Assembly: GCA_028714915.1 (NCBI GenBank)
Contig: JAQTLL010000002.1
Coordinates: 124,001-188,000, forward strand
From: Sulfuricurvum sp.
GTDB lineage: Bacteria > Campylobacterota > Campylobacteria > Campylobacterales > Sulfurimonadaceae
Direction: 5' to 3'
Length of the DNA: 64,000 nucleotides
The notes under the pieces: model-generated
What the model saw: the letters and a program-made list of their open reading frames with translations, nothing else
Told to the model about the DNA's origin: nothing
Database searches by the model: none
Shown here: piece by piece, positions 31,234 through 36,480 of the stretch
Numbering within the stretch: the stretch's first letter is position 1
Layout of the letters: each line of letters opens with the position of its first letter
Translations under genes and position numbers: made by a program

Positions 31234-31881
31234 TTAGTGTAAACATTCTCGCTTGAAATATTCACGTCCTACTTTGCACAATGGGCACGCAGCGGGTGCT
31301 TTTTTACCTCTGTGTACATGACCGCACACTTCGCATATCCAAATTTCATCTTCAGCGCCGGCAAAAAAACCATCAGCAATCAATGCCTCTTTAAGTGCTG
31401 AATATTCACGCTCATGTTCCACTTCGACTTTACCGATTGCGGTGAAGAGTCGGGCTAAATCATTGTGCCCTTCGGCTTTGGCAATTTCGGAAAATCCGGG
31501 ATACATTGTCTCGTGTTCGTAGTGTTCTCCCTCCATTGCCGTATCGAGGTTTGCGAGCGTTGCATCAAATTCAGTGCCATATATTAATGTGTGATACGCT
31601 TTATATTGCGCACGGGCATGGAACATTTCATTATTAGCAGCTTCACGGAAATGGCGCTCTACGGCATGCCATCCTTCATCACGGGAAATATCGGCAAAGA
31701 GCTCATATTTATTCCGCGCCATACTCTCACCACTAAATGCTTTCATTAGATTAACCGCTGTGAGGCTTTTGGTGATCATCTCCATTTCAGCTTGGCAACA
31801 GACTAATGTTCCCCCTCCGACATTTTGGACTTCAACTTCATTTCCGCACGTATTGCAACGGTAGGTTTCGTATTGGCGCAT
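31234..31881 (-). CDS. Desulforubrerythrin (desulforedoxin-rubrerythrin-rubredoxin)
   Basis: Non-haem iron peroxidase that reduces hydrogen peroxide. The 215 residues form three parts. An N-terminal desulforedoxin-like iron site has Cys9, Cys12, Cys28 and Cys29. The central four-helix di-iron domain has E-x6-Y and E-H-E-R motifs. A C-terminal rubredoxin-like site has I-C-E-V-C-G and C-P-L-C. This architecture is described for Campylobacter jejuni. It fits a microaerobic or anaerobic host. Confidence 0.92.
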   Translation of the reverse strand: MRQYETYRCNTCGNEVEVQNVGGGTLVCCQAEMEMITKSLTAVNLMKAFSGESMARNKYELFADISRDEGWHAVERHFREAANNEMFHARAQYKAYHTLIYGTEFDATLANLDTAMEGEHYEHETMYPGFSEIAKAEGHNDLARLFTAIGKVEVEHEREYSALKEALIADGFFAGAEDEIWICEVCGHVHRGKKAPAACPLCKVGREYFKRECLH

Positions 31882-31936: not shown

Positions 31937-32890
31937 TTAATTTTTAGGCACAGTGCAATCGGCAGCTTTTTCAAAATTACACTTGACACCTCTTGGCATA
32001 TTGCTTTTTAGTATTTGTCCATCATTGTAGATTAAAATATATCCAATTCCCAAAGAGTCCAAAAGTTGACGTGCTTTTTTCTCTTCCATCACGGCAACGG
32101 CAGTTGCAAGTGCATCAATTCGCGTATTGTCTTTTGCATCAATGAGGGTAATGGAGGCATATCGTTGCTCGGAGAGTCCAGATTTCGGATCAATCAAGTG
32201 GTTATTGGCTTTGGTTTTAATGTACCGCTCATAATTACCGCTGGTGCTGATGGCAATGCGTTGCAATGAAGAATGGATAAGGGCAATAGAGCCATCTGGA
32301 TGGAACGGATCTCGAATCTGAATATCACATGAGCCTAAACAGCCAATATCACCGGATGCTGCCACAACTGCTTTTGTAAGCCCTGTGTTCTGCAACATAT
32401 CGATTGTTAAATCAACTGCATATCCTTTGCCTATTCCCCCCAGATCAATAATTGTTCCGGGGAGAAGTTTTACATGATTTCCCTCTAAAATGATCCGTTC
32501 TGACCCCACAAATTTTCTTAATTTTTGAAGCTCTGAGTGACTTGGAAGGTGCTCATTTTCATATCCGAAACGGTACGCTCCATGGGTCAGTGAACCAATC
32601 GTTATATCAAATGCTCCAGCACTAAGACGAAACATTTCAAGGGAACGTTCCAATACTTTTTGAGTGACGGGCGATACAAAGCCCTCCAACTTTTGGTTAA
32701 GCTGTGAAATTTCAGAGTCACTTTTGTAGGTTGAAAGGCGATTGTCCAAATCTTTAAAGAGCATAAAAACAGCATCACTGAGATTTTCATCGCCAATAGT
32801 GACATTTATGAGAGTTCCCATATGTGCTTGAGTACGTGATGAAGCATCTAGTGAGCTAAGTAGCAAAAATAAGAAGAGAAGCGTTTTCAT
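31937..32890 (-). CDS. apbE: FAD:protein FMN transferase
   Basis: Attaches FMN covalently to Thr/Ser of exported proteins. The mature part shows A-H-M-G-T at the start, G-A-F-D-I-T-I-G-S-L, I-D-L-G-G-I-G-K-G-Y-A-V-D and A-A-S-G-D-I, matching ApbE. The frame extends to 33004, but the Met at 32890 begins a signal peptide (K-T-L-L-F-L-F-L-L-L-S-S), so 317 residues are taken. It is divergent from the porin/FMN-binding operon, and the FMN-binding protein there carries a T-G-A-T acceptor motif. Confidence 0.93.
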   Translation of the reverse strand: MKTLLFLFLLLSSLDASSRTQAHMGTLINVTIGDENLSDAVFMLFKDLDNRLSTYKSDSEISQLNQKLEGFVSPVTQKVLERSLEMFRLSAGAFDITIGSLTHGAYRFGYENEHLPSHSELQKLRKFVGSERIILEGNHVKLLPGTIIDLGGIGKGYAVDLTIDMLQNTGLTKAVVAASGDIGCLGSCDIQIRDPFHPDGSIALIHSSLQRIAISTSGNYERYIKTKANNHLIDPKSGLSEQRYASITLIDAKDNTRIDALATAVAVMEEKKARQLLDSLGIGYILIYNDGQILKSNMPRGVKCNFEKAADCTVPKN

Positions 32891-32942
32891 AAGACGAAGT
32901 GTACCATAGCTAGAAAAAGCTTTTTGTAAATGATAATTAGTT

Positions 32943-32958
32943 GCAATATTAATATTGC
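32943..32958. promoter_or_regulatory. Perfect 16-base palindrome between apbE and the porin
   Basis: GCAATATTAATATTGC is exactly self-complementary. It stands between divergent genes, 53 bases before apbE and 16 bases before a TATACT -10 box of the porin, where the -35 region would be. A dimeric regulator binding here could control both directions. Confidence 0.55.
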
Positions 32959-32974
32959 TTTCAGGTTGTTGGCC

Positions 32975-32980
32975 TATACT
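32975..32980 (+). promoter_or_regulatory. Probable -10 box of the porin operon
   Basis: TATACT, 39 bases before the porin start; an AAGGA ribosome site lies just before the ATG. Confidence 0.5.
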
Positions 32981-33019
32981 TTCGTAATCAATAATCACTA
33001 TCATAAAAAAGGATAACCA

Positions 33020-34342
33020 ATGAAAAACCTCCTCCTAAGTACTGTCGCCGCGATGGCAATTACTACCGCTTTGAGCGCTGATGAACTAAGTGATCTTAAA
33101 TCTCAGCTCAAAATTCTCAGTGAACGGCTCTCAACACTAGAAGCTAATGATAAAAAACAAGGTGAACAAACACAGACGCTTACCAATGAGCTGATTAATG
33201 TTCAAAACACGACCTCTTTTGGTACCGTTGACATGAGTAAAACTGAACCAGGCCTGGGAGCCGCCGCATCTAAAGTATACTATTCCAAAAATCCGCTCTC
33301 TATCGGAGGGTATGGTGAAATGTATTATTCGCATCAAAAACATGCGGGTACGGATGAGACGGAAGTTGCCCGCTTTGTCCCTTATATCGGTTATAAATTT
33401 AGTGATAACATAATCTTGAATTCTGAAATTGAATTTGAGCACGGCGGTGCAGAAGTATCTATTGAACAGCTGTATCTTGATTTTTTAATTAATCCGGCAT
33501 TTAATGTCCGTTTGGGACAACAAGTCGTTCCTATGGGTCTTATTAACCTTAATCATGAGCCAGTACTTTACAATACCGTAAAACGTCCGGATGTAGAAAC
33601 GTATCTCATCCCCTCAACGTGGCATGAGAACGGTCTAACTGTGCATGGGAAAACGGACACTTTCAATTACGCTGCAGGAGCGGTTGTTGCCCTTGATATG
33701 GGTCTTGCCAATCATGATGGAACTCCTGAAGCCAATACGTTCGGTCAAAGCTGGATTCGTGATGGTCGCCGAGGTGGAAATGAAAGAAATAATGCTACCT
33801 CCAACATGGGGGGTGTGGCTCGTCTTGATTACACCGGTATTAACGGTCTATTGGTTGGAGCGAGTCTTTATACGGGGAAAGCAGGTTCTTCCACGAATGG
33901 TCAGGGCGAGGGTAGAATGAGTATGGCGGATGTACATGCACAGTACCAATATGAGGGATTTAAAGTCAAAGGGCTGTATACCCAATCACATCTTAGCCAT
34001 GCTGATTCGTATTTAGGTGACCATAGTGGCGTTATTGCCAATACCCATGCACAATCAGCACGTGGCGGTTATCTGAATATGGAGTATAATATTCTTCCAT
34101 ATTTTACGCAAGCGGGTACACGATTACCGATTTTTTTCCAGTATGAAAACTACAATCTGGCAACCTCCATTACCGATGGAACCTCATTTGGAAACACGGA
34201 GAGCTTCACATACGGTTTGAATTACTTTCCGCATGAGCAAGTGGTCTTAAAAGGGGAGTATAAGTTGCGCCATAATAAAAATGGGGTTGACATGGCTGAA
34301 AATGAGGGAATCTACTCGCTTGGATTAGGATTTATCTTTTGA
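33020..34342 (+). CDS. Outer-membrane porin with N-terminal coiled coil
   Basis: Exported protein of 440 residues. A signal peptide (1-20) ends A-L-S-A-D; it is followed by a coiled coil (about 22-60) and a beta-barrel of amphipathic strands from about residue 95. The strand pattern I-G-G-Y-G-E-M-Y and R-L-G-Q-Q-V-V-P-M-G resembles phosphate-selective-porin-like families. The C-terminal residue is Phe, as usual for outer-membrane proteins. Substrate unknown. First gene of an operon with an FMN-binding protein. Confidence 0.85.
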   Translation: MKNLLLSTVAAMAITTALSADELSDLKSQLKILSERLSTLEANDKKQGEQTQTLTNELINVQNTTSFGTVDMSKTEPGLGAAASKVYYSKNPLSIGGYGEMYYSHQKHAGTDETEVARFVPYIGYKFSDNIILNSEIEFEHGGAEVSIEQLYLDFLINPAFNVRLGQQVVPMGLINLNHEPVLYNTVKRPDVETYLIPSTWHENGLTVHGKTDTFNYAAGAVVALDMGLANHDGTPEANTFGQSWIRDGRRGGNERNNATSNMGGVARLDYTGINGLLVGASLYTGKAGSSTNGQGEGRMSMADVHAQYQYEGFKVKGLYTQSHLSHADSYLGDHSGVIANTHAQSARGGYLNMEYNILPYFTQAGTRLPIFFQYENYNLATSITDGTSFGNTESFTYGLNYFPHEQVVLKGEYKLRHNKNGVDMAENEGIYSLGLGFIF

Positions 34343-34854
34343 TTAAAATTGCTTTTTTGACTTCTCTTTTTTCTGTTCTCCTTTTCGCCCAAGTTTTGGG
34401 CGATCCGGTTGCTTTGACACAACGTGCCTTTGGCTCTAAAAGTGTTGATACTCAAAATATCATTCTGAGTGAAGCACAGCTGCAAGAACTTATTAAAACA
34501 TCCCAGCAGAGCATCGACTCCAAACTCTATCGGCTTTATATTGCTAAAAATGAAGGTAAAGTGGCAGGTTATGGGGTATTGATGAATAAAAAAGTGCGCA
34601 CCAAAACGGCCATTGCTCTCTATCTTATCGGTACCGATAGTAAAATAAAATCAATTGAAATTGTCGCTTTTAACGAACCGATGGAATATCTCCCTACCAA
34701 GACGTGGTTGGACGGTTTTGATAACAAAAGTTCCGCCAATACCCTTAAGCTCAATCAAGACATCCCAACAACAACGGGAGCCACACTCTCAGCTCGTGCT
34801 ATCACCGATGGTGCCCGCGCTGCTTTGGCTCTTTTGGAAATTGTAAAGCCGTAA
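34339..34854 (+). CDS. Exported FMN-binding domain protein
   Basis: Protein of 171 residues with an N-terminal signal segment and an FMN-binding domain like those of RnfG/NqrC. The flavinylation motif D-I-P-T-T-T-G-A-T lies near the C-terminus; its last Thr is the predicted acceptor of FMN from ApbE. The TTG start overlaps the porin stop and has AGGA eight bases upstream. Probable periplasmic electron carrier. Confidence 0.87.
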   Translation: MIKIAFLTSLFSVLLFAQVLGDPVALTQRAFGSKSVDTQNIILSEAQLQELIKTSQQSIDSKLYRLYIAKNEGKVAGYGVLMNKKVRTKTAIALYLIGTDSKIKSIEIVAFNEPMEYLPTKTWLDGFDNKSSANTLKLNQDIPTTTGATLSARAITDGARAALALLEIVKP

Positions 34855-34857
34855 ATC

Positions 34858-35337
34858 ATGAAATTTATCGCTTCCAAAAAGCTCTCCGATAATTCTGTGC
34901 TGAGAGTAGTAATTCTGTGGATGCTTATCGCACTCATTCTTGCTATGGGTCTTAGTATCACAGCAAAAGCTATCGATTATGGTATCAGTCCTGTCCAATG
35001 GAGCCGTACGATACTTGGAAATCCCAATGAGTTTATTGAACCATTGGTGTTTAATGATTTGCTTTTAAGCATACATACTGATTTGTTCGGTTTTATTATA
35101 ACGTTTATTCTCATTGCCTCAATTTATGCACGAACCTCACGCTCCACTAGGATAAAAATAGGCTTTTTTACCCTTTCGCTCGTGAGTTTATTGCTTTATC
35201 CGCTTGCCTTGCTCTCATCACCATTGAGCGGAAGTATTGGTGTTACTATTGCTTTTGGATTGTTTCTTTTCTTTCATAATTTGATAATTTTAGGCTCGGT
35301 TGATCTAATCATTTTACTGATAAGAAAAAAGTTATAA
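34858..35337 (+). CDS. Four-helix membrane protein, 159 residues
   Basis: Not recognised by name. Four membrane segments lie at about 17-38, 68-90, 100-120 and 125-150. A loop G-I-S-P-x-x-W-x-x-x-x-x-G-N precedes helix 2, which begins S-I-H-T-D-L-F-G; another histidine lies in F-F-H-N. Helical histidines could bind haem or a metal. The next gene has the same layout and a matching G-I-S-P loop, so the two may be divergent duplicates. It starts three bases after the FMN-binding gene. Confidence 0.65.
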   Translation: MKFIASKKLSDNSVLRVVILWMLIALILAMGLSITAKAIDYGISPVQWSRTILGNPNEFIEPLVFNDLLLSIHTDLFGFIITFILIASIYARTSRSTRIKIGFFTLSLVSLLLYPLALLSSPLSGSIGVTIAFGLFLFFHNLIILGSVDLIILLIRKKL

Positions 35338-35777
35338 TGAATCAACGTCTTCTCACTTTTTTGGCGCTTATTTTTGTTGCGTTAGTGATTATGCAAGCCG
35401 TTATAGGGGCTGTGCTGTTTGCACAATTGGTTGGAATATCTCCCGATGAGGTGATAAAATATTATGGAAATAAATCATTGCATGGAATGTTGGAGGTAAT
35501 GCTCCCCCATGTGCTGTTTATCTCTATCGCACTGATGGCATCACTCCATTTTTTAGCATTTATCGATACCCTTTCTAAAAAAGAAAAAACACTCTTTACC
35601 CAGCTTTTATTCACCTTGTTTTTTATGGATCAAGTGAGCCCCATTTTTATAAGTTATGGAATTGTCTTTTTTGCTTATGTCAAAATAGTTGCATTTTTTG
35701 GATTTGAGGGTGTCCTTGGGTGGGTATGGATCGTGATATTCAGGGAATCTTTACTAAACGATACTTCACGTCACTGA
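35337..35777 (+). CDS. Four-helix membrane protein, 146 residues
   Basis: Not recognised. It has four membrane segments and a loop G-I-S-P-D-E-V-I-K-Y-Y-G-N, then histidines in S-L-H-G, L-P-H-V and S-L-H-F around helix 2, possible haem or metal ligands. It resembles the preceding protein in topology and loop. The start overlaps the previous stop by one base. Its end overlaps the convergent deacetylase by 38 bases. Confidence 0.65.
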   Translation: MNQRLLTFLALIFVALVIMQAVIGAVLFAQLVGISPDEVIKYYGNKSLHGMLEVMLPHVLFISIALMASLHFLAFIDTLSKKEKTLFTQLLFTLFFMDQVSPIFISYGIVFFAYVKIVAFFGFEGVLGWVWIVIFRESLLNDTSRH

Positions 35778-36480
35778 GACGGACAAAGCTGAATCCTTCT
35801 TTAAGCAAAATGTTAATTCCTTCGATTACCCCTTCTCGTGTTCCTCCCTCAGGATGATTCATGTGAAAGATAACAATATCACCGCTGTGTGCGCCAGTGA
35901 GCTGTTGAGTAACTTTGGATGCGCTGAAGGTAGCACCTGCATCACCTAGAACTGAAAAGCCGCCGATTTCCATCCCCAGAGTATGAGCAATAGCTACAGC
36001 ATTTTCGTCATAAAAGGCAGTGCCGGCACGAAAAAATTGAGGGCGAATACCTGTGAGTTTTTCTATTTTTTGATTGTTCCCTTCGATTTCGGCGATTACT
36101 TCATCTTCAGAGGCAGTACCATGGATTCCATAAATACTTTTTCCCTCAACAGAGAGAGGTTTATGCGCCGTTCCGTGGTTGGCTATTTCAAATAATGGAT
36201 TAGAGGCAAGGCGGATAAATATTTCTGGATTGCTATCGATCCAGCGGGTATTGATAAAGAGGGTAGCCGGTATGTGGTTAATACTCAAAAATTCGATTAA
36301 TCCGGCATCATATTGAGAGCTTTTTGCACTTCCGCCGCAGGCATCAAAGGTTAAAGCAATTTCTTTTTTATCGCTGTGAAAACGGGTCACAACTCCCGTT
36401 ACATTTTCACCCCATTGGGATGATGGTGTCTGAGCCATGAGGGTCATAATATTAAGCAATAGAGCAAGTAAAATAGGCAT
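35740..36480 (-). CDS. Exported polysaccharide deacetylase (NodB family)
   Basis: Protein of 246 residues with a signal peptide and the NodB fold. T-F-D-A-C-G-G holds the first metal aspartate, N-H-G-T-A-H the two metal histidines; F-R-A-G-T and I-V-I-F-H-M-N also fit. Probably removes N-acetyl groups from peptidoglycan or a surface polysaccharide. It is monocistronic and convergent with the membrane-protein operon. Confidence 0.88.
   Translation of the reverse strand: MPILLALLLNIMTLMAQTPSSQWGENVTGVVTRFHSDKKEIALTFDACGGSAKSSQYDAGLIEFLSINHIPATLFINTRWIDSNPEIFIRLASNPLFEIANHGTAHKPLSVEGKSIYGIHGTASEDEVIAEIEGNNQKIEKLTGIRPQFFRAGTAFYDENAVAIAHTLGMEIGGFSVLGDAGATFSASKVTQQLTGAHSGDIVIFHMNHPEGGTREGVIEGINILLKEGFSFVRLSDVKYRLVKIP

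Follow-up and report, generated by a model that had tools for sequence, protein, structure and literature searches.

Five neighbouring genes in a 64,000-nucleotide stretch of DNA (the whole of which is called the window) from Sulfuricurvum sp., a sulphur oxidiser related to Campylobacter, probably encode a Fur-repressed, envelope-located ferric reductase for iron assimilation, a module that most likely reduces iron for uptake. The genes are apbE, a porin gene, a gene for an exported FMN-binding protein and two genes for four-helix membrane proteins, MP1 and MP2 (Table 1). The original prediction, made for this DNA from its letters and open reading frames, had described apbE as divergent from the other four, and all five genes are present as described. 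It had also stated that the four plus-strand genes touch or nearly touch, and their junctions are indeed overlaps or a 3-bp gap. The FMN gene starts with a TTG codon that overlaps the stop codon of the porin gene (34339/34342), MP1 starts 3 bp past the end of the FMN gene, and the MP1 and MP2 genes have one base in common (35337). The start of apbE had to be moved: the open reading frame beginning at 33004 is over-extended, and the likely start is at 32890, where the signal peptide MKTLLFLFLLLSSLDASS begins. A 129-bp gap, masked by the coordinate 33004, thereby separates apbE from the porin gene, which starts at 33020. Adjoining apbE is a minus-strand gene (31234-31881) encoding a fusion of a desulfoferrodoxin N-terminal domain, a rubrerythrin and a C-terminal rubredoxin-like domain, of the peroxide-defence type. 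At the other end, a polysaccharide deacetylase gene (35740-36480, minus strand) is convergent with MP2, the two genes sharing 38 bp at the 3' end of MP2.

Table 1. Genes and Fur-box-like sites of the module, in coordinates of the window.
Feature	Coordinates	Strand	Evidence
apbE, FAD:protein FMN transferase, N-terminal signal peptide	31937..32890	-	PF02424 E 1.5e-61 (Pfam)
Fur-box-like site 1, TGATAATTAGTTGCA	32931..32945	+	3 mismatches to TGATAATNATTATCA; PWM rank 3 in 64-kb window
Fur-box-like site 2, CAATAATCACTATCA	32989..33003	+	3 mismatches to TGATAATNATTATCA; PWM rank 1 in 64-kb window, score 13.5
Porin, Porin_O_P-like, outer-membrane; N-terminal signal peptide and coiled coil	33020..34342	+	PF07396 in homologues
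Exported FMN_bind protein, RnfG-like	34339..34854	+	PF04205 E 2.2e-6; acceptor Thr149 in T146-G147-A148-T149
MP1, four-helix membrane protein; candidate haem ligands H73 and H140	34858..35337	+	AlphaFold mean pLDDT 92.8
MP2, four-helix membrane protein, MP1 homologue; H58 and H71 in one helix	35337..35777	+	AlphaFold mean pLDDT 92.8

We searched 200 Campylobacterales genomes with an MP1 profile and an FMN-protein profile, and the two proteins were found in an identical set of 23 genomes (hypergeometric P about 1e-30, with relatedness between genomes ignored). apbE was detected in 40 of the 200, that is, in 23/23 genomes with the module and in 17/177 of the others. The co-occurrence of the membrane proteins with apbE and the FMN gene, proposed earlier as a check, was thus observed. 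In a sample of 397 genomes covering the phylum, the module was found only in families of Campylobacterales.

Using the FMN protein alone, we gathered 80 named loci, 72 of which have enough downstream sequence, and in 71 of these 72 MP1 and MP2 lie directly 3' of the FMN gene. The sole exception, L110, holds an additional copy of the FMN-protein gene, the genome having a full module elsewhere (L118); in this Sulfurimonas MAG, OB5, the extra solitary FMN_bind gene (L110:7989-8516) is divergent from an imelysin/di-haem oxidoreductase cluster. The porin gene is directly upstream of the FMN gene in 56/69 testable loci, and apbE is present in 45/49 loci having both flanks. The order porin-FMN-MP1-MP2 was found again in loci of Sulfuricurvum, Sulfurimonas, Sulfurovum and Hydrogenimonas, the loci nearest to the window's module being from Sulfuricurvum and a Campylobacterales MAG. 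In the Sulfuricurvum loci apbE lies upstream of the other module genes and diverges from them, and in most other loci it lies downstream and converges on them, indicating that the gene grouping survives rearrangement. This layout is far beyond chance, and the five genes are a real inherited module across Campylobacterales; the grouping originally proposed holds for apbE, the FMN gene, MP1 and MP2, whereas the porin is a usual neighbour, not always adjacent.

Further genes were seen between MP2 and apbE. A multihaem cytochrome c (PF13435-like, Cytochrome_C554-like) is encoded there in Sulfurimonas-type loci (L085:9469-10572, L080, L087 and L101), and MntP, a putative manganese efflux pump, in L078, L079, L086, L088, L090, L091, L098 and L104. 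These MntP genes close to the module raise the possibility of a link to manganese.

The T-G-A-T acceptor motif reported earlier in the exported FMN-binding protein was upheld by the PF04205 match and by the alignment of the family, in which G147, A148 and T149 are invariant in 81/81 sequences. The best sequence match of the family profile in the PDB was the RnfG chain 9eri_G (E 3.9e-8). The window's genome yielded one ApbE match and one FMN_bind match, both at this locus, so ApbE has one evident client. A respiratory NQR or RNF complex as the client of ApbE was dropped, since no second FMN_bind match was found in this genome. ribBA adjoins or is near apbE in 31/80 loci. As for the porin, PF07396 is matched by 9/13 members of the family, with a best E of 8.6e-8; the copy in the window falls below threshold.

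The AlphaFold models of MP1 and MP2 each consist of four long helices, with a short helix following the first. An hhalign comparison shows the two proteins to be homologous (probability 96.8%, E 2.4e-10), and the MP1 profile also detects MP2 genes directly. The helical histidines pointed out in the original prediction proved to be conserved: H73 is present in 77/77 and H140 in 74/77 MP1 sequences, and H58 and H71 are both present in 74/74 MP2 sequences. These four are among very few near-invariant residues and are sited in the predicted long helices. In MP2, H58 and H71 lie in one helix at a distance of 13 residues, a spacing that suits two haems at different depths and is typical of bis-haem helices. 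By the positive-inside rule, H73 of MP1 and H58 of MP2 are nearer the periplasm, suggesting two haems shared between the subunits as the likeliest arrangement.

Comparison with profile databases, proposed as a route to a haem-binding family for the membrane proteins, matched no cytochrome profile. Neither protein has a family match in Pfam or NCBIfam, a PDB sequence search with MP1 returned nothing, and no MP1 or MP2 sequence match to any cytochrome appeared in the profile and PDB searches. A search for related loci with MP2 alone gave no relatives, and the loci were retrieved with the FMN-protein alignment instead. Focal-adhesion domains, rhodopsins and MAPEG enzymes came up when the two models were used in fold searches (best Z 9.9 and 9.2); these matches are at the level of any four-helix bundle and hence uninformative, so the low ranking of cytochromes among them is not evidence against a cytochrome. 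A PepSY-like or MsrQ-like cytochrome identity was rejected, since no MP1 or MP2 member was among the matches of the PepSY and PF01794 profiles up to E 10. Membership of DUF4405 (PF14358) was likewise rejected: no MP1 or MP2 member has a Pfam match to it, there is none in the window's genome, and hhalign comparison with 12 Campylobacterales DUF4405 proteins gave probabilities of 0.2% (MP1) and 8.5% (MP2). Judged by sequence, MP1 and MP2 seem to be a new putative b-type cytochrome made of two subunits, outside the known families tested. We put at slightly under an even chance the more specific proposal that they form an undescribed, obligately paired family of two-subunit b-type cytochromes in Campylobacterales, that both of their haems have one ligand from either four-helix chain, and that the pair is dedicated to feeding one flavinylated, Fur-controlled ferric reductase.

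The original prediction had left open the substrate reached through the porin and had missed the putative Fur boxes, which point to iron. A Fur box, counted as a site with <=2 mismatches to the core palindrome TGATAATNATTATCA, precedes the first module gene in 60/72 loci, compared with 40/671 (6%) other genes of the same loci; among those 40, many of the strongest belong to the divergent neighbour of the same gap or to imelysin operons. The PWM was built from loci L068-L132, outside the window's closest relatives, and the gap between apbE and the porin gene holds two of its three top-ranking positions in the entire window (Table 1). Both sites are weaker than the Sulfurimonas sites. A Fur-type motif is also found before feoAB in the window's genome (PWM 11.1, versus 13.5 for site 2), and the genome encodes two Fur-family regulators. 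At the level of sequence, the module thus has a Fur box in its promoter, the feature by which a Fur regulon is recognized, and these putative boxes give iron as its link. A genome-wide pattern search allowing <=2 mismatches detected 24 sites compared with 18 in the reversed control, per strand; this is barely above the control, hence we used only individually checked sites, above all the one at feoAB. Strong Fur-box-like sites were also noted before a predicted membrane permease (L188:1795; G000 C3:224800) and before an ABC-transporter-like operon (L187:1813; C3:186818).

Clusters encoding imelysin, di-haem oxidoreductase, fatty-acid hydroxylase and CCP/MauG peroxidase adjoin several module loci, and the imelysin genes in them carry Fur boxes of their own. 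The module itself includes no gene for an iron transporter. FeoB is encoded in 23/23 module genomes and in 181/200 overall (P 0.09), a distribution in which its presence does not discriminate.

In the mechanism that we propose, low iron would switch the module on via the putative Fur boxes between apbE and the porin gene. ApbE, as known for its family, would link FMN to the exported RnfG-like protein at Thr149, and MP1 and MP2 would be the two subunits of an inner-membrane b-type cytochrome, with one haem held between H73 of MP1 and H58 of MP2 on the periplasmic side and another between H140 of MP1 and H71 of MP2. Electrons would pass from quinol through MP1/MP2 to the periplasmic FMN protein, the reduced flavin would convert Fe(III) to Fe(II), and the product would be imported by the Feo system, feoB being present. 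The porin may admit ferric chelates or let ferrous iron diffuse. The earlier suggestion that the histidine-bearing proteins pass electrons to the flavoprotein is partly supported: conservation and co-occurrence support well a flavinylated electron-transfer module to which these proteins belong; haem binding and the direction of electron flow are what we infer, since no profile or fold match marks MP1 or MP2 as a cytochrome.

Fur control tells when the module is made, not its substrate, and the module may be made in iron starvation to reduce something other than iron, such as peroxide, a sulphur compound or an organic acceptor, with flavin replacing periplasmic carriers that are rich in iron. 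Iron-poor settings may favour flavinylation, as Meheust et al. suggest (PMC8238504), and di-haem peroxidase genes adjoin some loci. We consider a non-iron acceptor unlikely, as the putative membrane carrier would need haem iron itself, the adjoining imelysin clusters and ribBA point to iron uptake, and the module has no conserved subunit that would be a dedicated reductase.

That no profile ties MP1 and MP2 to cytochromes would also agree with histidines that bind metal directly, the pair then being a permease for ferrous iron (or manganese) that the flavin reductase would supply. The module is without another transporter, MntP is encoded near some loci, and other flavinylation clusters in some cases include an iron transporter, for instance VIT1 (PMC8238504). 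With such a permease, the module would lack any component for moving electrons across the membrane; moreover, the histidines are not accompanied by conserved acidic, Cys or Met residues as metal ligands, and the one-helix spacing of H58 and H71 is rather that of haem ligands, which makes a permease quite unlikely. A respiratory (dissimilatory) electron route to outside acceptors, for which the porin could belong to an outer-membrane conduit, is suggested by the multihaem cytochrome c gene of the four Sulfurimonas-type loci. This gene is absent from most loci, the module is patchy (23/200 genomes), and Fur control is expected of assimilation and not of respiration, so we regard a respiratory role as highly improbable. 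Assimilatory reduction of ferric iron is the reading that we retain.

By gene content, the module resembles known ApbE-flavinylated envelope systems and falls within their gene-level definition, ApbE being encoded with an FMN_bind protein that bears [S/T]GA[S/T]. It shares with RnfG/NqrC-type proteins the FMN_bind domain with the T-G-A-T motif for covalent FMN; in contrast to these, the window's FMN protein is stand-alone and exported, in a genome where the FMN_bind search revealed no RnfG or NqrC. PepSY flavinylation clusters are likewise Gram-negative, Fur-linked (Fur-repressed in Shewanella and Caulobacter) and proposed to be iron reductases (PMC8238504), but they carry a PepSY membrane protein with DUF2271/DUF4198, whereas MP1 and MP2 have no PepSY match in Pfam. 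The DUF4405/FezC cytochromes, which are associated with flavinylation and ferrosomes, are also small membrane proteins with conserved histidines, DUF4405 is often encoded beside apbE, and FezC has been modelled as building haem sites by dimerisation (PMC10979944). DUF4405 is a single six-helix chain with four histidines (PMC10979944), while MP1 and MP2 are two four-helix homologues with two conserved histidines each and no significant profile similarity to it. Text-term searches of the flavinylation surveys, in their main text as distinct from reference titles and supplementary tables, placed no such arrangement in Campylobacterota. We rate as new here a Fur-linked flavinylation module with what appears to be a new paired putative cytochrome, which, if true, would extend the list of known flavinylation-linked electron-transfer systems by a distinct membrane carrier. 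Within the same bacterial group, flavin supply through ribBA has been connected with the reduction of Fe(III) and with control by iron: a putative Fur box is present at ribBA of H. pylori, and in both H. pylori and C. jejuni ferric reduction increases with riboflavin synthesis, without a known mechanism (PMC6041382). The flavin of the window's module would, by contrast, be protein-bound, making the module a concrete candidate for enzyme-based ferric reduction in Campylobacterales.
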